A DNA stretch of 64,000 nt from Caldimicrobium sp. (GTDB lineage: Bacteria > Desulfobacterota > Thermodesulfobacteria > Thermodesulfobacteriales > Thermodesulfobacteriaceae): positions 1 through 64,000 of the forward strand of contig JANXCE010000006.1 in NCBI GenBank assembly GCA_025059715.1. The letters are read 5' to 3'. Numbering within the stretch: position 1 is the stretch's first letter; each line of letters starts with the position of its first letter. Made by a program: the position numbers and the translations under genes. This document shows positions 14,710 to 47,646 of the stretch, piece after piece. Under the pieces are notes generated by a model. It did no database searches. It saw only the letters and a list, made by a program, of their open reading frames with translations, and was not told where the DNA came from.

Positions 14710-14738
14710 TTGAAAAATTTTTAGAATTGATTTATAAT
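14710..14738 (+). promoter_or_regulatory. Sigma-70 promoter of the chemoreceptor gene
   Basis: TTGAAA (14710-14715), a 17-base spacer and a perfect TATAAT (14733-14738), about 50 bases before the ATG. The chemoreceptor is thus not under a sigma-28 promoter, unlike flgM and pilZ-motAB. Confidence 0.75.
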
Positions 14739-14789
14739 GTCTGCATAACAAATAAAGTTTTTTCCAATACTCCGCATAGGAGGGTCTTT

Positions 14790-16532
14790 ATGGTTAGGAC
14801 CATTAAAGGAAAAATTCTTCTCTCCTTTACTATACTCTTAGTTGCTGTTACTATCTTTATTTTTTCCCTTATGAGCCTTAATTCTTATAGGCAATTGAAA
14901 AAAACTCTTGTAATTGGGGCAGAGGGTATCATTATCCAGGGTGAAAATTTGCGCAAAAATTTTGGCAAACTTTACGAGAGTGGAGTTTTTAAACAACCAT
15001 TAGAGACCCTAAAACAAAGGGCTATTGAGGCTAAGGCCAGTGGAGACGAAGCTCGTTATAAAGCAGTCGTTAATGAGTTTCTTAATCTTGTTCCAGTAGT
15101 TCAATCTATGAGAACACTAAAGGAGGGAGAAAAGGAAGGAGGCTATATCTTTAGAGTTTTTAAGGAATACCCCCGTAATCCCAATAATACCCCGGATGCT
15201 GTTGAGAAAGAGGTTTTGAAAAAATATCAACAGGGTCTCATTAAAGGAACTTATGTTATTAAAGGAAAATACAGAGATCCTCAATCAGGTAGGGATAGAA
15301 GGGCTCTAAGGGTGTTTAGACCTGTTTATCTCACTGAGGATTGTCTCATATGTCATGGTGATCCCGCTAAGTCCTACGAGCTTTGGGGTAATAGAGAAGG
15401 AAAGGATTTAACTGGTGCAACAATGGAGAATTGGAAAGCTGGGGATATAGTTGGGGCCTTTGAGATTATCTATTTTCTTGATACCCACTTGAACAGATTA
15501 TACGGTGTCATGGGCCTTTTAGCTCTCTCTACCCTAACCATACTTCTAATTGCTCTCTATTGGTTAAGACACTTTATGATAAAAAACTTAAAAAAACCCC
15601 TCAACGAGGTCATAGAAGTTACCAGTAAAATCTCTAAGGGAGACCTATCAGTTTCCTTTAGCTATCACAGAGACGATGAACTAAAAGAACTTGTTCAATC
15701 TTTAGAAAAAATGCGCCTAGGGCTTGTAGACCTCGTGAAAAATCTTTTGAATTCCTTCAATGAACTTTTACAAACCACAGGATTAATGAAAGACAAAACC
15801 CTCTACCTCGAAGAGTCCGCAACCAACTTATCTCAAGTTACCGAAACCGTCAATCAAAAGATTATTGATATCAATATGAAGCTTAACGAGGTATCTCACT
15901 CCTTTGAGCAAATGAATATTGCTATTCAAGAAATCACTAAGAATGTTTTAAAGACCACGGAAATGACCAAGGAAACTAAGGAGAGAACTGACTTAGCTCA
16001 CAAGGTAGTTGAAAAGTTAGCGGAAAATTCTAAGAAGATTGGAGAGATAGTCATACTCATAAACAACATTGCAGAGGCCACTAATCTCTTAGCCTTAAAT
16101 GCCTCTATTGAAGCTGCCAGAGCTGGAGAAGCAGGAAAGGGATTTGCGGTAGTAGCCAATGAAGTTAAGGAGCTTGCTAGACAAACCCAAAATGCAACCA
16201 AAAGCATAGAAGAAATGATTTCAGAAGTTCAAAAGAACATCGAAAACACCATTACCGCCATAGACTCAATTCAAGATATGGTAAATCAAATAAATGATGC
16301 AGCCAATGTAATAGCCAGTGCTACAGAAGAACAAACCATCACTATGGGAGAGGTCAATACCTATCTTCAACAAACCGCTAATTTTACCACTGAGATTGGC
16401 TACTCTATGGAAGAGCTAATTAAAGCGATTGAACGCTTAAAGGAGGTCTCCACAGCCAATATTGATACAGCGGAAAGATTAAAAAGTTTAGCCGATACCC
16501 TCCGAAATCTTTCCCATCAATTTAGAACTTAA
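14790..16532 (+). CDS. Methyl-accepting chemotaxis protein with Tll0287-like c-heme sensor domain
   Basis: Transmembrane receptor of 580 residues. Membrane helix 1 is at about 9-29, the periplasmic domain at about 30-235, helix 2 at about 236-262, then a HAMP segment and the signalling coiled coil with the hairpin [19 protein letters not shown]. The periplasmic part is a Tll0287-like (DUF3365) domain with a heme c motif CLICH at 185-189, so it probably senses redox state or a heme ligand. Start is set at ATG 14790 because AGGAGGG lies just upstream; the longer frame has no ribosome site. It lacks the C-terminal methyl-esterase-binding pentapeptide. A histidine kinase at 36570 uses the same sensor type. 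Confidence 0.9.
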
Positions 16533-36569: not shown

Positions 36570-38225
36570 ATGCTCCAAAGCCTTAGATTAAAAGTTACTC
36601 AAAAATTCTTACTTTATCTTAATTTAATACTTTTTATTTTTTTATTTTTTCCCTTTTTACTTCTTTTCCATTACTTAGAAAAAATTTTTACTGAGCAGGT
36701 AAGAAAACAGGCCTTAACGGTTTATCATCAAATTTTACTTACCAGAAAGTGGATTGCGGATCACGGAGGAATCTATGTAGAAAAACTTCCTTGGGTGAAG
36801 GAAAATCCATATCTCAAAATGGTAGGTGAAAAAACTAAAATTTTTACTCGAGAAGGTGGTATCCTTATCAAAGAGAATCCCGCTTTAGTGACCCGCCAGT
36901 TATCAGAATTAGCCCGAGAGAACAAGCTTTATTGGTTTAAAATTACCAGTTTAAGGTATATAAACCCTGCCAATAAACCCGATCCCCTTGAAGAAGAGGC
37001 CTTACTACACTTTGAGAGGAATAAAAAATCAGAAGAATTTACCAAAATTGTGACCATTCAAAATCAACTCTTTTTCAGGCTAATTAAACCCCTTTATACG
37101 GAAAAACCCTGTCTCCGATGTCATGCCCGACAGGGTTATGCGGAGGGGGACATCAGAGGAGCTATTAGCATCTTTATCCCCTTCGAGGACACCTATAAAA
37201 AAATTATTTCCTACAAATTTTATACAGTTATCAGTTTTATCCTCCTTTGGCTTTCTCTCAATATTGGAATCCTTGTTATTTCCAATAAATTTATTTTTAC
37301 TCCTCTTTACTGTATTACCAGCCTATTGAATAAACTTCGTTTTCTCTATACTTCAAACAGGTGTTCTAAACCAACTAAACAGGATCCTACCTTTACAAAT
37401 GAATGGTCTACATTATTAGAAAGCATAAATAATTTCCTTAAAGAAATAAACTATTACCAAGAGCAGATGGAGGAAAAAATAAAAGAGGCTACTAAGGAAC
37501 TTAAAGCACAGACAGAACTCTTGCAAAAACTTTTAGACCACAAAAGTTTCATAATTTCTAACATGGCCCATGAAATCAAAACCCCTCTTACCTCAGTTAA
37601 AGGAAGTATCGATTTCATATATCACTACTTTATTGAAAGAGAACTGGGTAATGGCTCAGACCTTGAAAGGGAAAAACTAAAGGAATTTCTAAATATTTGC
37701 CGAAAAAACATTCAACGCCTTATTCAACTCTTCAACATGCTGGTAGATTTAGAAAAGCATGAAGCCAACCTTTTGGAATTAGATAAGAAACTATTTTCGT
37801 TAAGGGTTTTAATAGAAGAGGTTCTATATTCCTTGAGAGGACTTAGTGAACCTAAAGAATTGGTGTTTCAAGTGGAGGTAGAGGGAAATCCTATCTTAGA
37901 GGGGGATTATGAGAAACTCTTTATAGTCTTAACTAATTTACTATCAAACGCTATTAAATATTCTCCTCATAAAGGCACTATTCTTATAAAGGCTTACCCT
38001 GTGAACTCTAAGGTCAAAGTAGAGGTTAAGGATGAAGGTATAGGTATTCCCCCTGAAGAGGCAGAAAAAATTTTTACCAAATTTTACAAAAAAGGGGAGG
38101 GCGGTTTTGGCTTAGGTTTAGCTATAGCCAAAGCTTATGTTGAAGCTCATGGGGGACAAATTGGTTTCATTCCCTGTGAAAGGGGAGCCTGCTTTTACTT
38201 TGAAATTCCTCAAAAATCTGTATAA
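36570..38225 (+). CDS. Sensor histidine kinase with Tll0287-like c-heme domain
   Basis: Membrane kinase of 551 residues. Helix 1 at about 12-35, a periplasmic Tll0287-like (DUF3365) domain at 40-210 with heme c motif CLRCH at 181-185, helix 2 at about 216-240, a coiled linker, then HisKA with H334 in NMAHEIKTPLTS and HATPase_c with NLLSNAIKYSP, DEGIGIPPEEA and GFGLGLAIAKAY. It likely senses redox potential or a heme ligand such as nitric oxide. The response regulator follows after eight bases, and the pair runs convergently into the nitrate reduction genes, making them plausible targets; that link is inference. Confidence 0.9.
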   Translation: MLQSLRLKVTQKFLLYLNLILFIFLFFPFLLLFHYLEKIFTEQVRKQALTVYHQILLTRKWIADHGGIYVEKLPWVKENPYLKMVGEKTKIFTREGGILIKENPALVTRQLSELARENKLYWFKITSLRYINPANKPDPLEEEALLHFERNKKSEEFTKIVTIQNQLFFRLIKPLYTEKPCLRCHARQGYAEGDIRGAISIFIPFEDTYKKIISYKFYTVISFILLWLSLNIGILVISNKFIFTPLYCITSLLNKLRFLYTSNRCSKPTKQDPTFTNEWSTLLESINNFLKEINYYQEQMEEKIKEATKELKAQTELLQKLLDHKSFIISNMAHEIKTPLTSVKGSIDFIYHYFIERELGNGSDLEREKLKEFLNICRKNIQRLIQLFNMLVDLEKHEANLLELDKKLFSLRVLIEEVLYSLRGLSEPKELVFQVEVEGNPILEGDYEKLFIVLTNLLSNAIKYSPHKGTILIKAYPVNSKVKVEVKDEGIGIPPEEAEKIFTKFYKKGEGGFGLGLAIAKAYVEAHGGQIGFIPCERGACFYFEIPQKSV

Positions 38226-38233
38226 TAAAACAT

Positions 38234-38926
38234 ATGAGTGAAAAGATTTTAGTAGTGGATGATGACCCAGATATATTAACCATAGTCTCTTCCTTCCTTC
38301 AAATAGAAGGATTCAAGGTTCTTACTGCAGATAACATTGCCAAAGCTCAAGATCTTCTGAATAAAGAAAAACCCTCTCTCATCATACTGGACATAATGCT
38401 TCCGGACAAAAGTGGTTTGGAATGGTTAAAGGAGATAAAACTGCAGCATCCAACGTTGCCGGTAATTTTTTTAACCGCCAAGAGTTCTCTCTCCGATAAA
38501 GTGCTTGGTTTCGAGTTAGGAGCTGATGATTACTTAGCCAAACCCTTTGAGCCTTTAGAATTAGTAGCCCGCTGTAAAGCCCTAATTCGAAAGATTAAAC
38601 TACTGCAAACTTCAAAAAAGGAGTTCTATTGCCTCGGGAGGCTAAAAATCGATATAAAAAGTAGAAGAATTTTTAAGGATGAACAAGAAATCCATTTAAC
38701 ACCCACCGAATGGAAAATATTAACCTTGCTACTTTCAGAACCTGGTAAGGCCTTTAGCAGAGAAGAAATCAAAAATGCTATTTGGGTTGAAAAAAAGATT
38801 TACAACTGGAGTAGAGTCTTAGATGTTCACATAAAAAATCTCAGAGAAAAAATTGAAGATGATCCCAACAATCCCCGATATATTCTCACAGTCCATAGTT
38901 TCGGTTATAAGATTCAAGAGATATAA
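38234..38926 (+). CDS. OmpR-family response regulator
   Basis: Transcription factor of 230 residues. The receiver has acidic DDD near residue 8, the phospho-acceptor aspartate in LIILDIMLPD (about D53), T/S in FLTAKS and the lysine in YLAKPFEP. The C-terminal winged helix contains LTPTEWKILTLLLSEPGKAFSREEI and RVLDVHIKNLREKI. Partner of the heme-domain kinase just upstream. Its end is three bases from the convergent napD-like gene. Confidence 0.92.
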   Translation: MSEKILVVDDDPDILTIVSSFLQIEGFKVLTADNIAKAQDLLNKEKPSLIILDIMLPDKSGLEWLKEIKLQHPTLPVIFLTAKSSLSDKVLGFELGADDYLAKPFEPLELVARCKALIRKIKLLQTSKKEFYCLGRLKIDIKSRRIFKDEQEIHLTPTEWKILTLLLSEPGKAFSREEIKNAIWVEKKIYNWSRVLDVHIKNLREKIEDDPNNPRYILTVHSFGYKIQEI

Positions 38927-38929
38927 TTT

Positions 38930-39166
38930 CTAATCGCCTGCCTTGCCTAAGGAATAATAGGTAAGAAAAACATTTAAAACACCCTCTATGCCCTTCATAA
39001 ACTTTAGAGTACTCTCAATCTCAAATAGGGATTCTCTCTCTATTAAATAAACAATCTTTTTGTTCTCAACTCCTATCACTTCAATAGCATTTGCCTTTAA
39101 GATATCGATAACCCTTTCTAAGCCTTCATTATCTAAAACTTCTAAAAAACCACTGGCAATAGGCAT
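38930..39166 (-). CDS. napD: NapD-like Tat-signal chaperone
   Basis: Small protein of 78 residues. Length, ferredoxin-like alternating pattern and position at the end of the nap genes fit NapD, which binds the twin-arginine signal of NapA and delays export until the cofactor is inserted. The match to the core NapD signature (GVLNVFLTYYS near the end) is moderate, so the assignment relies partly on context. It is three bases after napH. Confidence 0.7.
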   Translation of the reverse strand: MPIASGFLEVLDNEGLERVIDILKANAIEVIGVENKKIVYLIERESLFEIESTLKFMKGIEGVLNVFLTYYSLGKAGD

Positions 39167-39169
39167 TAT

Positions 39170-40003
39170 CTACACTCCTAATTTAAACTTTATTAAATTA
39201 GCCTTTCCTCCACAGGCCTCTACACAATTTCCACAAAATATACACTCTTGACTCCGAATATGTCCCTGCGGGACCCTCTCCGCTATCTTTACCCCCATAT
39301 AACAGACCCTTTCACAAGAAGCACATTGCAAACAATCTTTGTCTTGAAATTTTAAGTGTAATAAACTAATTTTATTAAACAAACCATAGATCTTTCCAAC
39401 GGGACAAAGCACCCTACACCAAAGTCTTGGAAAAAGGCCCTCTAAAAACAACAAAAACAATAAAAAAAACAAAGAATATAAAAGAAGAGAAAAATCAACG
39501 GGAAAGTTGAATGTCAAAAAAACCAAAGCAGTAAGGGTGCGAAAAAAGTTAGTTAAATGTGAGATATAATTAGTGAATACTGGTATACCAGAAATAAAAG
39601 AAATTAATAGAAAAAATAAAACTACAATATATCCTGTGTGTGAAGGTATTTTGTAAGAAATTTCTAAATAGGGCGAGGTTTTCAGTCGGTTAATCCAATT
39701 AAAAAACAAATCCATGGGACAGACCCAGCCACAAAAGGCTCTTCCAAAGATAAAATAAATAAGCAAAACAGGTATAACTGCCCATAAAGAATCTATAGTA
39801 AATTTTTTGGAAGCTATAAGAGCCTCTACAAAGGCAAAGGGATCAAGAAGCTTTATCCAAGAAATTAAAAGGGATCCACTCAAACCCCCAATTAGCAATT
39901 TTATTCTTAAAAACTGGAATAAAAACAATACTAAAACCAACACTAAAACTATCCTTCGCAGTAAAGTATATCTTTTCAAGTTTACAACCTGCAGACTTTT
40001 CAT
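39170..40003 (-). CDS. napH: NapH quinol-dehydrogenase membrane ferredoxin
   Basis: Inner-membrane protein of 277 residues. About five hydrophobic helices, with cytoplasmic CGWVCPMDLFFNW and RVLCPVGKIYG motifs, and two C-terminal 4Fe-4S sites (CLQCASCERVC and CIFCGNCVEAC). NapH works with NapG to draw electrons from the quinol pool towards NapA. It overlaps the napG stop by four bases. Confidence 0.92.
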   Translation of the reverse strand: MKSLQVVNLKRYTLLRRIVLVLVLVLFLFQFLRIKLLIGGLSGSLLISWIKLLDPFAFVEALIASKKFTIDSLWAVIPVLLIYFIFGRAFCGWVCPMDLFFNWINRLKTSPYLEISYKIPSHTGYIVVLFFLLISFISGIPVFTNYISHLTNFFRTLTALVFLTFNFPVDFSLLLYSLFFLLFLLFLEGLFPRLWCRVLCPVGKIYGLFNKISLLHLKFQDKDCLQCASCERVCYMGVKIAERVPQGHIRSQECIFCGNCVEACGGKANLIKFKLGV

Positions 40004-40761
40004 CGGTATTCCCTCTCTTGAATCCTTCCTCGAGATAATATCTTGGGTAAATTTTCATTATAGACAACAAGATATCGCTCTTCCATGGTCATATTTAAGA
40101 GACGTTGAAACTCTTGGTCGTATTTGGGTTTAACCCTTTGGTATATCTCTCTCTTTATCACCTTTACTGCGGATCCACCTAAGGGACAATATTTTACGCA
40201 CAAACCACAGCCTACACACTTTTCATTAATATAAGGTTGATTTCCCCACTCGCTATTGTAAAAATCAAATACAAAGGCTCCTAAGGGACAGGCCTTACTA
40301 CAACTCAGACACACATCACCATTCCAACCAAAGCATAAACTAAAATCAATTAAAGCTTGCCCCATAGTCACCTTCTCTTTTTCCACCTTTTGAAGAGCCC
40401 CTGTGGGGCAATGCTTAGGACACTCCATACAGAGCCCACAGGGGAAATCTCTCATGTCCTTAACATAGGGAGTGCCTAAATTTCTAAAATCTGCAAAACC
40501 TACCACTGCAAGAGCATTATACTTCATAGCATGACAAATATTGACACATATTCCACAACTAATGCACTTAGATCTAAATTCTCTCTCTGGTAGGGCACCG
40601 GGAGGCCGTATCAGCCCTCCTATAGGAATATTAGCTAAAGGAGGCTCGAATTCCTCTTTCTTCCTTGCTAAACTAAACCCTCTTGGAGATTCTATATGAT
40701 AGAACCCTAGGAGAGATAAGCCCATTAATCCTGCTATCTTTAAAAAGGTCCTTCTAATCAC
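40000..40761 (-). CDS. napG: NapG periplasmic ferredoxin
   Basis: Exported protein of 253 residues with a twin-arginine signal (MIRRTFLKIAGLMG) and four 4Fe-4S clusters: CISCGICVNICHAM, CGLCMECPKHC, CLSCSKACPLG and CVGCGLCVKYCP. NapG receives electrons from NapH at the membrane face and hands them on to the nitrate reductase. It starts 105 bases after napA, separated by a strong hairpin (40820-40847) that may lower its expression relative to napA. Confidence 0.93.
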   Translation of the reverse strand: MIRRTFLKIAGLMGLSLLGFYHIESPRGFSLARKKEEFEPPLANIPIGGLIRPPGALPEREFRSKCISCGICVNICHAMKYNALAVVGFADFRNLGTPYVKDMRDFPCGLCMECPKHCPTGALQKVEKEKVTMGQALIDFSLCFGWNGDVCLSCSKACPLGAFVFDFYNSEWGNQPYINEKCVGCGLCVKYCPLGGSAVKVIKREIYQRVKPKYDQEFQRLLNMTMEERYLVVYNENLPKILSRGRIQEREYR

Positions 40762-40819
40762 TTTCTTTCCAAATTGAATTTCTTAATAATATTATAAAAT
40801 TTTATTAAAAATTTTTTAC

Positions 40820-40847
40820 AAAAAAGGGGGCATGGGCCCCCTTTTTT
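40820..40847. terminator. GC hairpin after napA
   Basis: Perfect 12-base-pair stem AAAAAAGGGGGC / GCCCCCTTTTTT with a four-base loop, 20 bases past the napA stop. In the napA direction the stem is followed by a T6 within the arm. It can act on either strand. It lies before napG, so it is either a partial terminator or an mRNA 3' end stabiliser. Confidence 0.75.
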
Positions 40848-40866
40848 GAGGTATTATGTCTACTTC

Positions 40867-43800
40867 CTATGCTATAACTTTCCCTGGTTCTGCCTGTCTG
40901 GTCTTAGTTCTTCCTTTATAGATTTTGACGGCAAACATCTTGTAATCGGGTTGAAAACTGAAGGGATCAAAGTAATCGGGCATTATCATATTTATGAGTT
41001 TATATTCATCAAACCAGGGAATAAAAACATAATCCTTTCGTGGTCCACCGGTTGCCTGAGTTACATTGAGCACTTTAGCTGGTAGCTCAATTTTGCCCCG
41101 ACGGGATTCCACAATGACCATATCTCCAGTCTTAATCTTTAGCTCTTTAGCAAGTTCTTCGTTAATCTCTACATATGCCCCAGGAACGGCACGCGCAAGT
41201 TGGGGCACCCTGGTGGTCATACTTCCGGTATGCCAGTGTTCAAGCACTCTACCCGTGCATCCTCCATACTTATATTCTCTGGTATCATAAATAACCAATT
41301 CTGTTCCGTCAGCCTTTTTATAGGCACATCTCAATCCAGCAAATTCTGCTGGACTAAGGGCTATAAGCTTTAGAGCATTGAGATCTTTGTCAGGATCCCC
41401 AATTACGCTTACTGTATATCTGGCCTTAATATCGAAAGGTAAAGCGGAATTTTCATCTACTTTTTTAGGATTAAACACTCTCTCTATTATCTCTACTGTT
41501 CTGTATTTGACAAATTTATTTCCCTCGAGTTTACAAGCCCACCAAGGATTGGCCCAAGCAATGGCTCTGCCATCAATCACTGGAATTCTTCCCCCAGGTC
41601 TGGTAGGATCATCTACCAAACCATGAATGAAAGGATTAGATGAATAGAAGAATACATACCACCCTGCGGGAACATTTTCCTTCTTGTGATATTCAAAATC
41701 TTTCATCTCTTCAGCAATCTGTTTCTCAATCCAGCTCGCATAGACAGGATTAAACTTTTTCAAGTTCTCAATGGCTGTCTTATAAAACTTTTCAATGTGG
41801 GGATCGTAGGGATAGGCGTATTGTATGCGGGACTCATATTTGTCGTATCTGCGTTTGACATCGGGATTAGTATGATAGTCCTCTGGAATTGGCTGGCGAT
41901 AGCCATAATTTCTCTCATGAAGCATTGACTTTTTCATACCAGTAAAGTCATAGGCCGTTCCTCTACAACAATCGAGCACATCAAGCCACACATTGGCAGT
42001 GAATTTTCTATTCCAGTCTTTAGTTTTGGCTGCGGAAATAGTCTTTTTCAGCCAGTCGGGACCATCATATTCCTCTGGCCAAAAACGAGAAATCAAACCC
42101 TTGGGTATTATTCCCTCCTCCTCTAATCTCCGGGATATAATAGCTGTTAGTGTGTGATCAGGAATAGAGTCTTTATGAGGTGGTATATAATGCCTGATAA
42201 CTTGATATCTTCTCTCTAAGTTACCATAGACGTATTCTTTTTCACTCCAAGAGGAAGCAGATAGCACCACATCCGAAACCTGGGTTGTGGCATTAGGAAA
42301 GGCTTCAAAGGTCACAACAAGGGGCCAAGGTGTACCTTTGTGAGCTCCTCCCATGGCAAGTCTATAAGCCCAGGAATAGGGATTACTCTGTCCAGGATTT
42401 ACCGTAGAGATAAACATCACCTTGATCTGATCCGCGCCCAGTCTTCTAAACATCTCTACAGTGTGTGGTCCCGGTATTGGATGAATCTTAATCTTTTCTG
42501 CCTCCTTTGTAGCCTCCGCTTCACTCATTCCCTTCTTCCTCAGGTAGGCAACCACGCTTCTTCTCCAAATGCCCTCTATAGCTGCTCTATGCAAGGGATT
42601 AGCTACTAATCTTCCATAGGGAAGCGCATGACAGAGAGCACCAGGAGCTCTGATTCCCCCACAGGCATTGGGCTGTCCCGTAAAACTGAAGGACAACCTA
42701 CCAGGCTTACAGGCCTTGCCGGTGATAAAATGTAACATGTGTAAAGTGGCATTAACCCAAGTGCCCTGCACCTTCTGATTGACACCCATAGTCCAACAAG
42801 TAACTGTATAGCCCTCAGCAAACCATTTGGCGGCAAGTCTTATGGCTTCAGGCCCAGAGATCTTCTTCCAAGTCCTTGTCTTAGCATCGTAAAGTAAGGG
42901 AGATTCCCCCTCAAAAAGGGCCTCACTAATCTTTTCTGGCTTATAATCCTCGAGAAAGGCTAAGAAGAGGGCAAATCCCTTATAAAGATCCTTTTTTATC
43001 TCCTCCTCCGAGGCATATTTCTTCTTAGGGTCGGGATAGACAACAGCGGAATGCCCTGGTGTTGGAGGTGCGGTATAAGATATATCCCAAGCCTCACCTC
43101 TTGCCCCACCATAATTGGTCTTAACCCAAATCTTTTTCACATCCTGATGGATTCCAAAGGAAACATGCCTTTCAATAAATTTTTTATCTAAGTATTTCCA
43201 ATTGGCACTTACCTCTCCCTTAGCTACATCATATTTAGCTTTATCTAACTCGAAGGCAATTACATAAGCCATGGAATTTAAGAGTAAAAGATCCCTTCCT
43301 GAGGCAATGGGAAGCCAGAGATCGGCAATAGTTCCAGAGCGAGTCTTTCTGGGATCGGCCAGGATTACTTTAGCATTGGGATTTTTAGCCTTTACCGCAG
43401 CCATTCTGTTGAAAATTATTGGATGCGCCTCCGCGGTATTTGATCCAATCAAAAAGAAGGTATCCGCATGTTTTTTGAAATCGGGATCAGGCACATCGAT
43501 GTCATCAAGGGATCCCCAGGGCTCATCCTTACCTACCGCATAGAGATAACCTACTACTGCAGAGGCCATACAGGTTCTCGGCTGACCCTCAATGGCATTA
43601 TTCTGAAGCCCTCCTTTAAAAAGGATATTCATTAAATGGGACTCCTCAGTCCCTGCTTGTCCGCTACCATAATAGGCAATACTGTGTTTCCCAAACTCCT
43701 TATAAGCCTTTACACAGGCCTTAACGATAAACTCAATAGCATCCTCCCAGGGCACAACCACAAAATTTTCCTTTAGATCTACCTCAGAAGGTTTTAATCC

Positions 43801-44202
43801 CCTGGGATCCTTGCTGGTCTTACCCTCTTTTACGCGCGGAGAATTCTCTAAATCAGGCTTGCCAGTTGCAGGATTGATCCACTCCTTTCTTATCAGAGCA
43901 CCACTGGGCCTATCCTTATATTCCAAGGCATGGTGAAGATAAAAACCTTTGGTGCAAAGAACTCCTCTGTTAACAGGGCTCTTGGGATCACCTTTTATAG
44001 CCAGTATTTTCACTGGCTCTCCCTTAGCATCCACCTCACACTCTACAAGCATGGTGCAACCAATAGCACAAAATCTACAGGGACCAGCAGGAAAGGTCTT
44101 CACATTAGTGGCAAAAACCTCCTCCGGCTTGGCCAGTCCGGCCGCTGCAGTTGCGGCAGCTATAGCACTTAATCTTAAAAAATCTCTACGACTTAATTCC
44201 AT
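40867..44202 (-). CDS. napA: Periplasmic nitrate reductase NapA, unusually long
   Basis: Molybdopterin enzyme of 1,111 residues that reduces nitrate to nitrite in the periplasm. Tat signal SRRDFLRLSA; 4Fe-4S cysteines C42, C45, C49 and C83; molybdenum ligand C211 in RTCMASAVVGY, the NapA-specific pattern; C-terminal EHWHTGSMTTRVP and LINMIMPDYFDPFSFQPDYK, also NapA-type. Usual NapA is about 750-950 residues. The excess comes from a longer stretch before C211 and insertions around 330-400 and 700-850. Start at ATG 44202 is set by AGGAGG eight bases upstream. No NapB is encoded beside it. Confidence 0.93.
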   Translation of the reverse strand: MELSRRDFLRLSAIAAATAAAGLAKPEEVFATNVKTFPAGPCRFCAIGCTMLVECEVDAKGEPVKILAIKGDPKSPVNRGVLCTKGFYLHHALEYKDRPSGALIRKEWINPATGKPDLENSPRVKEGKTSKDPRGLKPSEVDLKENFVVVPWEDAIEFIVKACVKAYKEFGKHSIAYYGSGQAGTEESHLMNILFKGGLQNNAIEGQPRTCMASAVVGYLYAVGKDEPWGSLDDIDVPDPDFKKHADTFFLIGSNTAEAHPIIFNRMAAVKAKNPNAKVILADPRKTRSGTIADLWLPIASGRDLLLLNSMAYVIAFELDKAKYDVAKGEVSANWKYLDKKFIERHVSFGIHQDVKKIWVKTNYGGARGEAWDISYTAPPTPGHSAVVYPDPKKKYASEEEIKKDLYKGFALFLAFLEDYKPEKISEALFEGESPLLYDAKTRTWKKISGPEAIRLAAKWFAEGYTVTCWTMGVNQKVQGTWVNATLHMLHFITGKACKPGRLSFSFTGQPNACGGIRAPGALCHALPYGRLVANPLHRAAIEGIWRRSVVAYLRKKGMSEAEATKEAEKIKIHPIPGPHTVEMFRRLGADQIKVMFISTVNPGQSNPYSWAYRLAMGGAHKGTPWPLVVTFEAFPNATTQVSDVVLSASSWSEKEYVYGNLERRYQVIRHYIPPHKDSIPDHTLTAIISRRLEEEGIIPKGLISRFWPEEYDGPDWLKKTISAAKTKDWNRKFTANVWLDVLDCCRGTAYDFTGMKKSMLHERNYGYRQPIPEDYHTNPDVKRRYDKYESRIQYAYPYDPHIEKFYKTAIENLKKFNPVYASWIEKQIAEEMKDFEYHKKENVPAGWYVFFYSSNPFIHGLVDDPTRPGGRIPVIDGRAIAWANPWWACKLEGNKFVKYRTVEIIERVFNPKKVDENSALPFDIKARYTVSVIGDPDKDLNALKLIALSPAEFAGLRCAYKKADGTELVIYDTREYKYGGCTGRVLEHWHTGSMTTRVPQLARAVPGAYVEINEELAKELKIKTGDMVIVESRRGKIELPAKVLNVTQATGGPRKDYVFIPWFDEYKLINMIMPDYFDPFSFQPDYKMFAVKIYKGRTKTRQAEPGKVIA

Positions 44203-44222
44203 AATAAACACCTCCTAAGAGA

Positions 44223-44729
44223 TTATTTTTTAGCCTTAGTTACTGCCTTTTTTGCAGATAACGCCTCAACCGCTACTCCATCCCCATAGGGTGAATAATC
44301 TCCATTGGCTGCCACCCCCATGACTGTCAGCACTGCCTCCTCAGCATCCTGTGGAGCCACCCATTCAAAAACCCACTTTCTCTTCGTATTACCCTCTTGG
44401 GTATGGGTTAAGTAGCCATGTAAAAGTTGGGTATTTTTATCATCCTTAATCTTTAAGGTCCCACCTACCACTTGAGCCGCAAAACCTCCCTTGGACTCAC
44501 TCACACTTAAAACCTTAGATTGAACCTCCACAGTTATAGTATAGCTTCTACCAGGTTGAAATTGAGAAGGGAAACCCTTAATTATCACCTTTGTGGCCTT
44601 ACCCTCAATATGACAATTACCACATTCAAGATTCATAGCACTATTTCTATGGGCAGTAAGATCAGAGGGAGAGAACAAAAGGTTTCCCAATAACCATCCT
44701 CCAACTAATCCAGCTATTCTTTTAATCAT
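44223..44729 (-). CDS. Monoheme c-type protein with choice-of-anchor V/Reeler-like domain
   Basis: Exported protein of 168 residues. After an N-terminal hydrophobic segment (IAGLVGGWLLGNLLFS) comes one heme c motif CGNCH with HRNSA before it. Then a beta-rich domain with GFPSQFQPGRSYTITVEV and a later HGYLTHTQEGNTKRKWVFEW, which resembles the choice-of-anchor V / Reeler type. The C-terminus is lysine/alanine-rich. Encoded 20 bases before napA, it may carry electrons to NapA in place of NapB, or bind near it; neither is proven. AAGGGGG precedes the chosen ATG; the longer frame would overlap the upstream gene. Confidence 0.7.
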   Translation of the reverse strand: MIKRIAGLVGGWLLGNLLFSPSDLTAHRNSAMNLECGNCHIEGKATKVIIKGFPSQFQPGRSYTITVEVQSKVLSVSESKGGFAAQVVGGTLKIKDDKNTQLLHGYLTHTQEGNTKRKWVFEWVAPQDAEEAVLTVMGVAANGDYSPYGDGVAVEALSAKKAVTKAKK

Positions 44730-44742
44730 ATCATGCACCCCC

Positions 44743-45624
44743 TTAAATTTGTCCTTTAATAAACAATTCATCAATAAGAGCCTTATTTATCACTACCTTG
44801 TGTCCCTTCTTAAGCTCAGCCATATATTCCTCCATTAGCTTTCCTCTCTTTTCTTCCATAAGCACATTTCTTATACTCTCTTTAAGGGTGTCAAACTCAA
44901 TATAGCCAGGTTCTTTAACTTCTTCTAATCTAAGGATATGCCATCCGAAGGGTGTCTTTACCGGCTCACTAATTTGTCCCGGTCTCATCCTTTTTAGCAC
45001 CCTTTCAAACTCTGGAGGCATTTTGCCCTCTTCTAAGTATCCAAGACTTCCTCCCTCTTTAGCTCTCTCCTTATCAATGGATACTTCTTTAGCTAATTTT
45101 TCAAAGGGTTCTCCCTTCCTCAATCTCTCCTGCACAGCCTTTATATCCCTTTCTTCTTTTACTTGAATATGACTTACCTTGTAACGCTTAGCCAGCTTGT
45201 AGTGTTCTTTGTTTTTATCATAATACTCTCTGATCTCTTTATCGCTAACCTTGAGCTTAGGTAGGAAATCTCTCTTGATTAGTTCCTGAACCATTAAAAT
45301 CTTTTTCTGTTGTTCTAATTTAGCTTGAAACTCGGGATCCTTATCAATATTTTTCTTTTTTGCCTCTTGATAGAGAAGCTCCATATAAACCCAATCTTCT
45401 ACAAACTTGTCTAAAAGGGCCTTGTTAACCCGATAGAGTTCCCTCTCTTCAGGCGGACGCAATTCTATGGCCTCCTTTAAATCCTTTAAAGTAATTTGAA
45501 CCTCTCCAACCTGAGCCACCACCTGATTTTTATCAGCCTGAGAAATCCTCTCTTTCTCCTTTCCCTTACAGCTTGAAAGTGCCAAAATGATAAAAATAGT
45601 TAGGGCACTAAAAAACCTTTTCAT
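44743..45624 (-). CDS. Parvulin-type peptidyl-prolyl isomerase lipoprotein (PrsA/SurA-like)
   Basis: Exported folding factor of 293 residues. Signal peptide with lipobox LALSSC gives a lipid anchor. A SurA-N-like helical region is followed by the parvulin domain (KVSHIQVKEERDIKAVQERLRKGEPFEKLAKEVS, GGSLGYLEEGKMPPEFE, TPFGWHILRLEEV). Start at ATG 45624 has GGGGGA just upstream. Its place between nitrite reductase and the monoheme gene suggests that it helps fold these exported cytochromes or NapA; that is inference from position. Confidence 0.87.
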   Translation of the reverse strand: MKRFFSALTIFIILALSSCKGKEKERISQADKNQVVAQVGEVQITLKDLKEAIELRPPEERELYRVNKALLDKFVEDWVYMELLYQEAKKKNIDKDPEFQAKLEQQKKILMVQELIKRDFLPKLKVSDKEIREYYDKNKEHYKLAKRYKVSHIQVKEERDIKAVQERLRKGEPFEKLAKEVSIDKERAKEGGSLGYLEEGKMPPEFERVLKRMRPGQISEPVKTPFGWHILRLEEVKEPGYIEFDTLKESIRNVLMEEKRGKLMEEYMAELKKGHKVVINKALIDELFIKGQI

Positions 45625-45682
45625 TTTTCCCCCATTCTGCATATAATAACTTAAAAATAATACAATAAATATTTATTTATCC

Positions 45683-45718
45683 CATTAAAAAGGGGGGGTA
45701 CCCCCCCCCTCTTTTAAG
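45683..45718 (-). terminator. G9/C-rich hairpin after the nitrite reductase gene
   Basis: On the minus strand TTAAAAGAGGGGGGGGG pairs with CCCCCCCTTTTTAA around a GGTACC centre, about 15 bases after the stop. The T5 in the right arm is followed by AATGGG. It should terminate or attenuate transcription into the parvulin-nap genes. The run of nine G is also a likely slippage site. Confidence 0.7.
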
Positions 45719-45733
45719 AGAGAAGGTTTTTTA

Positions 45734-47500
45734 CTACTTCTTTGCACCTTCGAGTTTAGCTCTCTTTTCCGCTATTGCCTTATTGAGAAGGTCAATTGCT
45801 TCCCAGGAAGCTTGCACCGATCTCGCTAAGGTAGCAAGGGCATGTCTTGGGTTGTGGAAACCGTCGGAGTTCTCTGCCGTCCACCACTCCCAATACATAT
45901 GAGCTTCCTCATGAAGTTTTCTGGCTTTATTCAATGTGGCCTCATCCACTCCCCAATCTTTGGCTCTCTGGAAAGTCTGCACAAGCTCTCTTAGCCACAC
46001 TTCTGCCTTTCTCATTTTACCTTTCACATGCGCCTTAACTGATTCCACTGCGTATTCAGCATCCTTAGGTGTCCAGTCAGTATGACATTTCAAGCATGGC
46101 CTCCAATTAAAATCTCTGGGAGATGCATGGAAGTGAGAGGTAAACTTCTTTTCACTCTTGACAATCTTATCTCCAGAGCTTCTCTTGGCAAATCCAGCCT
46201 GACCCTTGTCAGTATGACAATCAATACAAGTTGCCCCAATTTTGGCATGCTCAGAGAAGTAGTAAACCTCAACTTCAGGATGCTGAATCTTCCAGAGTTT
46301 TGCACCGGTCACATAGTGCACAAAGTCAAAGAACTTGTATTTCTCAATGTGCTTCATACCAGTGGGCTCAATAATTCTATACCTGTCGGTCTTGGCAATG
46401 GGGATAAAGGGGAAGTGGTTAGATCTTCTGTCAGTGGCGAAGTCAACTGGGACTGGTGGCTTACCATATTCGCTCTTCTCATAATCGAAAAGCACTCCAC
46501 AGTTATACTCCACATGGCACTGACCACAGAGAAGGTTGGTATCGTATCTGTCAAGAATGGCAATCTTTCTCTCATATCCTCTCAAACCCAAACCTTCTTT
46601 GTTTCCATAGACCTTAATATTTGCCCTACCCACATATCCTTCGTGCCAGAGGGTATCATTTCTCGTGGTTAACGCCTCAATTAAAGCATCCCTGACGATC
46701 CTTGGTTTTGCCGCATGAGGATCATGACAGGTATAGCAGTTCATAGGATTGTTAGTATAGGTCTTAGCTATGTAAACAGGGTTTGTGGTTCTATTGATAT
46801 CACTCTTAGGAGTGGGATCTCCCATATAGGGCCACTCTAAGATGTGATCCTGAGTCTTACAGAGTAAGCACATAGCAACGGCAGCTGCTGCTGTTCTTGG
46901 ATGGAACACCTTTCTTGGACCCTTGGGATCTTCCTCTGGATAGGCATCAAAGAGAATCTCCCAGGCCTTAACAGGTCCCTTCTGAATTACATCCTGATAC
47001 CCCCTTCTGTACTGAAATCTTCCACCATAGGCCCGATCCGCTGCTAAGTGATCTACGAGCATATATTTATGACTCCTTGGCTCCGCATGATAGATCTCAA
47101 ATGCATAGGGACGAATTAAAGTTTCCCAGAAGGGCGAACGAGATTTGGGATCTCCCTTATCATAATAAAGGTGCTTACGATAGTTATGACCCATAAAGCT
47201 CTCATACTGCTCCTTATGACACTTACCACAGGTCTCATGATCAGTAATAGTCTTTGGCCTTTTAGTTACATTCTTAAGATGCTCATGAAGACCAGAATGA
47301 CAGTTAATACAATTAACATCCTTGTGAGCTCCTGTAGAATGAAATTCCTTAATCAAGGCGTGACAGTTATAACACTGCTTGGGATCAACCGCAAACTCAT
47401 CGGGAGCCTTAACCGCATCAACCTTTTGACTAAAAATAAGACTTCCTGCTAAAAAAGATCCAACCACTGCACTTACATAAAATAACTTCTTTTTACCCAT
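45734..47500 (-). CDS. Octaheme cytochrome c nitrite reductase (ammonia-forming, ONR type)
   Basis: Exported protein of 588 residues with a signal peptide (about 1-29) and eight heme c sites: C43, C64, C91, C211, C255, C325, C425 and C469. Seven are CxxCH; the fourth is CLLCK (K215), the lysine-ligated catalytic heme of nitrite reductases. Y332 and C334 in CHVEYNCG match the Tyr-x-Cys pair that is crosslinked in the Thioalkalivibrio octaheme enzyme, and H407 (KIQHPEVE) corresponds to the catalytic histidine of NrfA. It reduces nitrite (and hydroxylamine, possibly sulfite) to ammonium. AGGGAGGG precedes the ATG. First gene of the nap island. Confidence 0.9.
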   Translation of the reverse strand: MGKKKLFYVSAVVGSFLAGSLIFSQKVDAVKAPDEFAVDPKQCYNCHALIKEFHSTGAHKDVNCINCHSGLHEHLKNVTKRPKTITDHETCGKCHKEQYESFMGHNYRKHLYYDKGDPKSRSPFWETLIRPYAFEIYHAEPRSHKYMLVDHLAADRAYGGRFQYRRGYQDVIQKGPVKAWEILFDAYPEEDPKGPRKVFHPRTAAAAVAMCLLCKTQDHILEWPYMGDPTPKSDINRTTNPVYIAKTYTNNPMNCYTCHDPHAAKPRIVRDALIEALTTRNDTLWHEGYVGRANIKVYGNKEGLGLRGYERKIAILDRYDTNLLCGQCHVEYNCGVLFDYEKSEYGKPPVPVDFATDRRSNHFPFIPIAKTDRYRIIEPTGMKHIEKYKFFDFVHYVTGAKLWKIQHPEVEVYYFSEHAKIGATCIDCHTDKGQAGFAKRSSGDKIVKSEKKFTSHFHASPRDFNWRPCLKCHTDWTPKDAEYAVESVKAHVKGKMRKAEVWLRELVQTFQRAKDWGVDEATLNKARKLHEEAHMYWEWWTAENSDGFHNPRHALATLARSVQASWEAIDLLNKAIAEKRAKLEGAKK

Positions 47501-47542: not shown

Positions 47543-47586
47543 ATATTATGAAGGCTTGACTGTTAAAAGTATAGACAAAATTTTGT
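47543..47586 (-). promoter_or_regulatory. Candidate regulated promoter of the nitrite reductase gene
   Basis: Minus strand TAATAT (47543-47548) has no recognisable -35. A perfect 12-base palindrome ACAAAATTTTGT (47575-47586) is centred about 44 bases before the expected transcription start, the usual place for an activator that replaces -35 contacts. The protein that binds it cannot be told from sequence. Confidence 0.35.
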
Positions 47587-47646
47587 TAATTTTTTGTAAA
47601 TTTTAATTATTTCAATCTATACATACAATAGAATTTAAGATTCTCC

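Follow-up and report, generated by a model that had tools for sequence, protein, structure and literature searches.

How could nitrate be reduced all the way to ammonium in the periplasm of a bacterium without NapB, NapC or NrfA? The question is raised by a nap gene cluster in a 64,000-nucleotide stretch of DNA from Caldimicrobium sp. (assembly GCA_025059715.1, contig JANXCE010000006.1, positions 1 to 64,000; referred to as the window). The source organism is a hot-spring sulfur bacterium; in hot and sulfidic habitats, nitrogen is retained by nitrate ammonification. A first-pass annotation of the sequence had proposed the gene order octaheme nitrite reductase (ONR), parvulin, monoheme protein, napA, napG, napH and napD-like, and had predicted that together they allow complete periplasmic ammonification. 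We found the seven genes in this order on the minus strand, from 47500 to 38930. Since the gaps between successive genes are tight (91, 13, 11, 105, -4 and 3 nt), the run very probably forms one operon. From its gene content we consider it quite likely that the operon encodes a periplasmic nitrate-ammonification system, and the predicted complete pathway is supported as the best reading of the sequence.

The absence of the usual partners, also claimed by the first-pass annotation, extends beyond the locus. In the 1.84 Mb draft of the source genome (99.6% complete), on which all genome-wide absences rest, no match to PF03892 (NapB) or PF03264 (NapC/NrfH) was found. The nrfAH pair, whose presence elsewhere would have spoken against ONR as the main nitrite reductase, was also searched for: ONR is the only strong PF02335 match in the genome, and neither a pentaheme NrfA with NrfH nor one with NrfBCD was found. 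Two weak PF02335 matches are an 8-heme and a 5-heme protein, both without CXXCK, and a NrfA elsewhere in the genome was thus ruled out. The genome also carries a dsrAB pair (named from the sequences by eye and by a NIR_SIR match), in line with the sulfur-user context assumed earlier.

The proposal that ONR stands in place of NrfA was supported by this genome search. The heme motifs of ONR are, in order, CYNCH, CINCH, CGKCH, CLLCK, CYTCH, CGQCH, CIDCH and CLKCH. This is the arrangement by which ONR is defined, three CXXCH, one CXXCK and four CXXCH (PMC10716430). The protein also contains YNC, RAYGGR and QHPE motifs; YNC is the motif of the Tyr-Cys cross-link (PMC12285233), and in the window ONR it lies within QCHVEYNCG, a motif shared with the Thioalkalivibrio enzyme, which places the active-site tyrosine beside the cross-linking cysteine. 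Comparison with the Thioalkalivibrio octaheme nitrite reductase (PDB 2zo5) gave an E-value of 1.9e-128. Judged by these motifs, the protein is a true octaheme nitrite reductase.

The nitrate reductase is unusual in its length, which the first-pass annotation had not mentioned. With 1114 residues, against about 800 in ordinary NapA, it is about 300 residues longer, and an alignment with long and short NapA showed the additional sequence as several segments, of which the largest covers roughly residues 790 to 970. An AlphaFold2 (AF2) model was too poor (predicted local distance difference test, pLDDT, 58) to be used for placing these segments. The Fe-S cysteines C45, C48, C52 and C86, the Mo ligand C214 and the active-site R521 are invariant in long and short NapA alike. 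The best-matching hidden Markov model was that of NapA, and the closest structure was Desulfovibrio NapA 2jio (E 1.5e-117). In a tree of 27 proteins, with no NasA row, the ten long NapA formed a single clade (100/100) inside the NapA region; the branch to the NapA of the genus had support of 97/94 and FdhF fell outside, which places the long proteins with NapA and not with formate dehydrogenase. The NapA of the window and of G006 paired with those of Nitrospirae (100/99). In GTDB contigs and 395 genomes of the phylum, long NapA was found at 64 to 91% identity in Caldimicrobium, Desulfobulbaceae-type genomes, Nitrospirae metagenome-assembled genomes (MAGs) and Candidatus Kryptonium, and it is rare, with 6 of the 395 genomes positive at E < 1e-100. 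Many of the loci compared here are MAG contigs, and related loci are not independent of each other.

Two of the six positive genomes, G229 and G272, carry long NapA at 67% identity, with the order A-G-H-D and ONR far from nap. We infer that they are Desulfurivibrio alkaliphilus and D. dismutans, an assignment that both of these features fit; the long NapA clade spans Thermodesulfobacteriota, Nitrospirae and Kryptonium and probably also Desulfurivibrio. Thorup 2017 describes the D. alkaliphilus napAGHD as containing a "novel type of NapA", similar to that of Kryptonia and with an unknown electron donor, and reports napAGHD transcripts on nitrate (PMC5516251). In D. dismutans, according to a later report, the NapA protein was strongly upregulated on nitrate (PMC12142623). 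Of the evidence from outside the window, this expression on nitrate speaks most strongly for the function of its NapA.

Wherever the region upstream of long napA could be read, in 11 loci, the monoheme gene lies directly 5' of napA, whether or not ONR is adjacent. Its product has a Reeler fold: the AF2 model (pLDDT 79.7) had the F-spondin reeler domain as its top Foldseek match (E 1.6e-7). A longer version starting from TTG at 44774 is possible. In the 11 proteins the CXXCH motif and a second histidine (H109, in THT) are invariant and M137, the other candidate ligand, is missing in one, suggesting that H109 could possibly be the distal heme ligand. Among 60 relatives, clear homologues were limited to G000, G003 and G006, the three that have long NapA; none was detected in the 16 related genomes with ordinary NapA, and one distant genome gave a weak match. 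The gene is kept with long NapA where no ONR adjoins (Kryptonium locus L028 and loci L088 and L089 of G229/G272) and is absent from genomes with ONR and ordinary or no Nap (G001, G005, G023, G028); therefore, its partner is NapA and not ONR. Tetraheme NapM, which lies beside napA in the Desulfovibrio-type system, was not found in the window, where the monoheme protein takes that place. On this conservation we lean towards the monoheme protein being the electron donor of long NapA, and it appears to be the best candidate for the donor left unnamed by Thorup 2017. Because this type of NapA is strictly paired with a single small cytochrome gene, the question of its donor can be tested directly.

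A response regulator and a histidine kinase, convergent with napD at 36570-38926, may control the operon. The kinase contains a Tll0287 (sCache_heme) domain with a CXXCH motif (CLRCH), fused to HisKA/HATPase, and the same domain was found in the kinase homologues of five loci (L026, L030, L031, L068 and L069). The regulator is a conserved neighbour in the genus and also in L026 and L031. According to a 2026 preprint, Tll0287 is a Cache domain with c-heme, and those members that are fused to signalling domains behave like nitric oxide (NO) sensors, with NO binding reported; the preprint mentions neither nitrate nor nitrite (PMC12889525). The locus described here links this newly described sensor family to a nitrate pathway.

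In 11 of 12 loci the operon is preceded, at a distance of 69 to 193 nt from its first gene, by a tandem repeat, TTWAC-N6-TTWAC; the chance per locus in shuffled sequences is 0.0007 to 0.011. In 362 kb of locus sequence, all matches but two were upstream-of-operon copies, with 4.85 expected in all. In its form the repeat is PhoB-type. We could not retain the idea that it is a private signal of the neighbouring regulator, as similar repeats precede two other genes. One, of TTAAC-N6-TTAAC type, was found before a pstSCA-like phosphate transporter (named by eye) in G001 (L129, 15548), and PhoB-family boxes in the genus may share this form. The other, TTAACAAAAAATTAAC, lies in contig 1 of G000, 92 nt before a 143-aa gene (L150, 565-1088, minus strand) with a Tat-type start (MNRRNFMK), whose product, read by eye, looks like a desulfoferrodoxin; this repeat is identical to one before the Nitrospirae onr-nap operons. 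The Tll0287 kinase was not seen beside nap in G229, G272 or the Desulfobulbaceae contig L029, although the repeat is present there. Control of the operon by the neighbouring regulator seems to us somewhat favoured. A sigma-70 promoter candidate before ONR (47566-47538) matched 10 of 12 positions; with 27 such matches found against 27.5 expected, it was given no weight.

In the proposed pathway, menaquinol would be the electron source of NapGH, with no NapC involved, and the electrons would next reach the Reeler-fold cytochrome, which, at the place of NapM or NapB, would feed the long-type, monomeric NapA reducing nitrate to nitrite. ONR would then reduce nitrite to ammonium with six electrons, probably also delivered by NapGH, either directly or via the same carrier. 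NapD would assist the export of NapA by the twin-arginine translocation (Tat) system and the parvulin lipoprotein would probably help in the folding of exported proteins, while the response regulator and the c-heme Cache kinase would probably turn on expression by way of the 11-bp-period repeat that precedes ONR. The coordinates are given in Table 1.

Table 1. Position and sequence features of the nap-onr operon and its putative control elements in the window.
Feature	Position	Strand	Characteristics
Candidate operator TTTACAAAAAATTAACA	47584..47600	-	two half sites, 11-bp period, 100 nt before ONR start codon
ONR, octaheme cytochrome c nitrite reductase	45734..47500	-	588 aa, Sec-type signal sequence, catalytic heme CLLCK; PF02335 145 bits
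Parvulin-type peptidyl-prolyl isomerase	44743..45642	-	299 aa; PF00639 85.6 bits
Monoheme c-type cytochrome, choice-of-anchor V / Reeler fold	44223..44729	-	168 aa from ATG; NF041895 97.3 bits
Long NapA	40867..44211	-	1114 aa, Tat signal SRRDFLR, 4Fe-4S and Mo-bis-MGD residues intact
NapG, Tat-signal ferredoxin	40000..40761	-	16 Cys; TIGR00397 99.8 bits, under the curated cut-off
NapH, membrane ferredoxin/quinol dehydrogenase subunit	39170..40003	-	two CX3CP motifs; TIGR02163 151.5 bits, under the curated cut-off
NapD-like chaperone	38930..39166	-	78 aa; PF03927 27.6 bits
PhoB/RpaB-type response regulator	38234..38926	+	PF00072, PF00486; convergent with napD
Membrane histidine kinase, Tll0287 (sCache_heme) c-heme sensor domain	36570..38225	+	PF11845 76.8 bits, cut-off 24.1

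Several observations weigh against this scheme. The window NapA scored 426.2 bits, well below the NCBIfam NapA equivalog cut-off of 904; this cut-off is also missed by the ordinary NapA of the genus (688.9), and the NapA of G229 scored 422. The NapD-like protein is borderline, at 27.6 bits against the Pfam NapD cut-off of 28, and a napD-like gene occupies the same position in other loci. Desulfurivibrio is an inferred identity for G229/G272, and the repeat before pstS in G001 indicates that the upstream element may be readable by PhoB. The long branch separating long NapA from other NapA (1.4 changes per site), together with the extra segments, could suggest that the enzyme reduces an oxyanion other than nitrate. 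We regard this as very improbable given the conserved catalytic residues, the linkage of long NapA to ONR in most loci and the induction of the Desulfurivibrio homologue on nitrate, found in two studies (PMC5516251, PMC12142623).

The alternative to which we give most room, while considering it unlikely, keeps nap as described and lets electrons pass from NapG directly to NapA and ONR; the monoheme protein would then have a role in assembly, as a scaffold or as a heme-bearing sensor of the complex, and not as a carrier. The Reeler/choice-of-anchor V domain is indeed not a classical cytochrome fold, and the monomeric Desulfovibrio-type NapA likewise lacks NapB. Against this alternative stand the invariance of CXXCH in all 11 proteins, with H109 as a possible distal ligand, and the four-heme, NapM-like cytochrome that sister loci with ordinary NapA have at the same position. 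It could also be proposed that ONR serves mainly in sulfite or hydroxylamine reduction or in nitrite detoxification and not in respiration, since Thioalkalivibrio ONRs reduce sulfite and hydroxylamine too (PMC5433712) and the organism has dsrAB. This appears improbable, as the nap run begins with ONR in members of the genus with two different nap types and also in L025, L026, L031 and L090, and the genome encodes no second nitrite reductase of the NrfA/ONR family.

The window operon is a variant of an already known Nap-ONR pairing. Trichlorobacter ammonificans reportedly has a NapAB plus NapGH composition encoded by adjacent genes. As cited in two later papers, the Nap-ONR partnership was described for this species by Sorokin 2023 (PMC11972089, PMC12142623), and in the Nap-TaNiR system of T. 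ammonificans and other Geobacteraceae, as outlined there, a periplasmic nitrate reductase is likewise combined with an octaheme CXXCK nitrite reductase, T. ammonificans being without pentaheme NrfA. In contrast to that system, the window has no NapB, and a long NapA with a monoheme Reeler cytochrome is found instead. The earlier suggestion that ONR plus Nap in one run is an undescribed operon type therefore does not hold, the 2023 module being of the same kind, and most of the examined genomes of the genus having ONR beside nap. The first-pass annotation was thus right in gene content and missing partners and wrong in novelty, and the NapA length, the monoheme domain and the kinase with its regulator were absent from it.

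Closer to the window is the napAGHD of Desulfurivibrio, which shares the order A-G-H-D, the lack of napB, the presence of ONR in the genome and, through G229/G272 and the Kryptonia link, presumably the long NapA clade (PMC5516251, PMC12142623). In L088 and L089, which we assign to Desulfurivibrio, a monoheme gene lies upstream of napA as in the window; it goes unmentioned in the passages of the two reports that were consulted. These presumed Desulfurivibrio genomes differ in that ONR lies elsewhere and no Tll0287 kinase was seen beside nap. The napMADGH of Desulfovibrio and Thermosulfurimonas also combines a monomeric NapA without NapB with NapGH, NapC being absent from Thermosulfurimonas as well; it differs in its tetraheme NapM and ordinary NapA. 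Thermosulfurimonas-type systems likewise belong to sulfur-cycling thermophiles ammonifying nitrate, and Otr or HAO-like (hydroxylamine oxidoreductase-like) proteins have been proposed as the nitrite reductase of Thermosulfurimonas (PMC5276818, PMC4911364). Ammonification of nitrate by sulfur-disproportionating Thermodesulfobacteria was shown in 2017 (PMC5276818), and ONR was listed for Caldimicrobium thiodismutans in the same year (PMC5433712). Searching the main texts of the open literature, we came across no account of a fixed pairing of the monoheme gene with long NapA or of this gene being missing where NapA is ordinary, nor any of an exchange of ONR inside the genus or of a c-heme Cache kinase beside nap-onr.

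Within the genus, ONR lies beside a nap operon with napGH in the window, G001, G005, G002 and G006 and, across a contig break, in G003, in three arrangements. The window and G003 combine an ONR of the Nitrospirae branch with parvulin and long Nap. G006 has an ONR of the genus branch with long Nap, flanked by gpsA and IDH as in the window. G001, G005 and G002 have the genus ONR (about 42% identical to that of the window), a tetraheme cytochrome and a short Nap in the order A-D-G-H; these ordinary loci share with the window the position of ONR upstream of nap and the convergent regulator and Tll0287 kinase, and G001 and G005 also the TTWAC repeats. The ONR tree splits the window (with Nitrospirae, 100/100) from G006 (with the genus, 100/99), whereas the NapA tree joins them, so the simplest reading of these sequences is that nap and ONR types were exchanged at one locus within one genus. 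The operon has a G+C content of 0.35 to 0.45 and the remainder of the window one of about 0.36 to 0.48, which gives no signature of recent transfer; a recent foreign island was therefore discarded, and the case for exchange of nitrate and nitrite reductase modules rests on the trees. More tentatively, and with slightly more doubt than confidence, we propose that long NapA is a family of its own, with the monoheme protein as its dedicated redox partner. With NapGHD they would form a module free of NapB, NapC and NapM, mobile between phyla and able to dock with more than one kind of nitrite reductase: either of two ONR branches or, as in Kryptonium, an HAO-like octaheme protein accompanied by Rieske and cytochrome b. 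In several lineages this module would be under the control of a c-heme Cache NO-type sensor acting via the 11-bp-period repeat.

The parvulin is probably an exported lipoprotein because its N-terminus carries a lipobox (LSSC). A homologue is encoded in the same operon in the Nitrospirae loci L025/L026, and Nitrospirae operons also include ResB, a cytochrome c maturation protein; this combination suggests a link to octaheme maturation. No dedicated CXXCK heme lyase was found in the window, and one ResB and two cytochrome-c-assembly proteins are encoded elsewhere in the source genome.

Other pairings were seen in the compared loci. In G006, an eight-heme protein with a NapC/NirT-type N-terminal anchor, absent from the window, is encoded on the opposite strand between ONR and the long nap genes (L030, 7984-8946, minus strand). 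In Candidatus Kryptonium, where no ONR was found, the long nap operon is followed by a Rieske protein and a cytochrome b (both named by eye) and by an HAO-like octaheme protein (PF13447) with a NapC-type N-terminus (L028, 15224-18438), possibly a bc-type route to nitrite reduction without ONR. A Rubrivivax MAG provides another ONR-Nap pairing with a different NapA: its ONR and a 919-aa NapA are encoded divergently, together with NapG and a match to NapH (L033, 7618-14568). Finally, 20 kb from the nap-onr operon, the window encodes a second Tll0287 (sCache_heme) protein (14727-16532, plus strand), which is fused to HAMP and methyl-accepting chemotaxis protein (MCP) signalling domains and is a candidate heme-based chemoreceptor.

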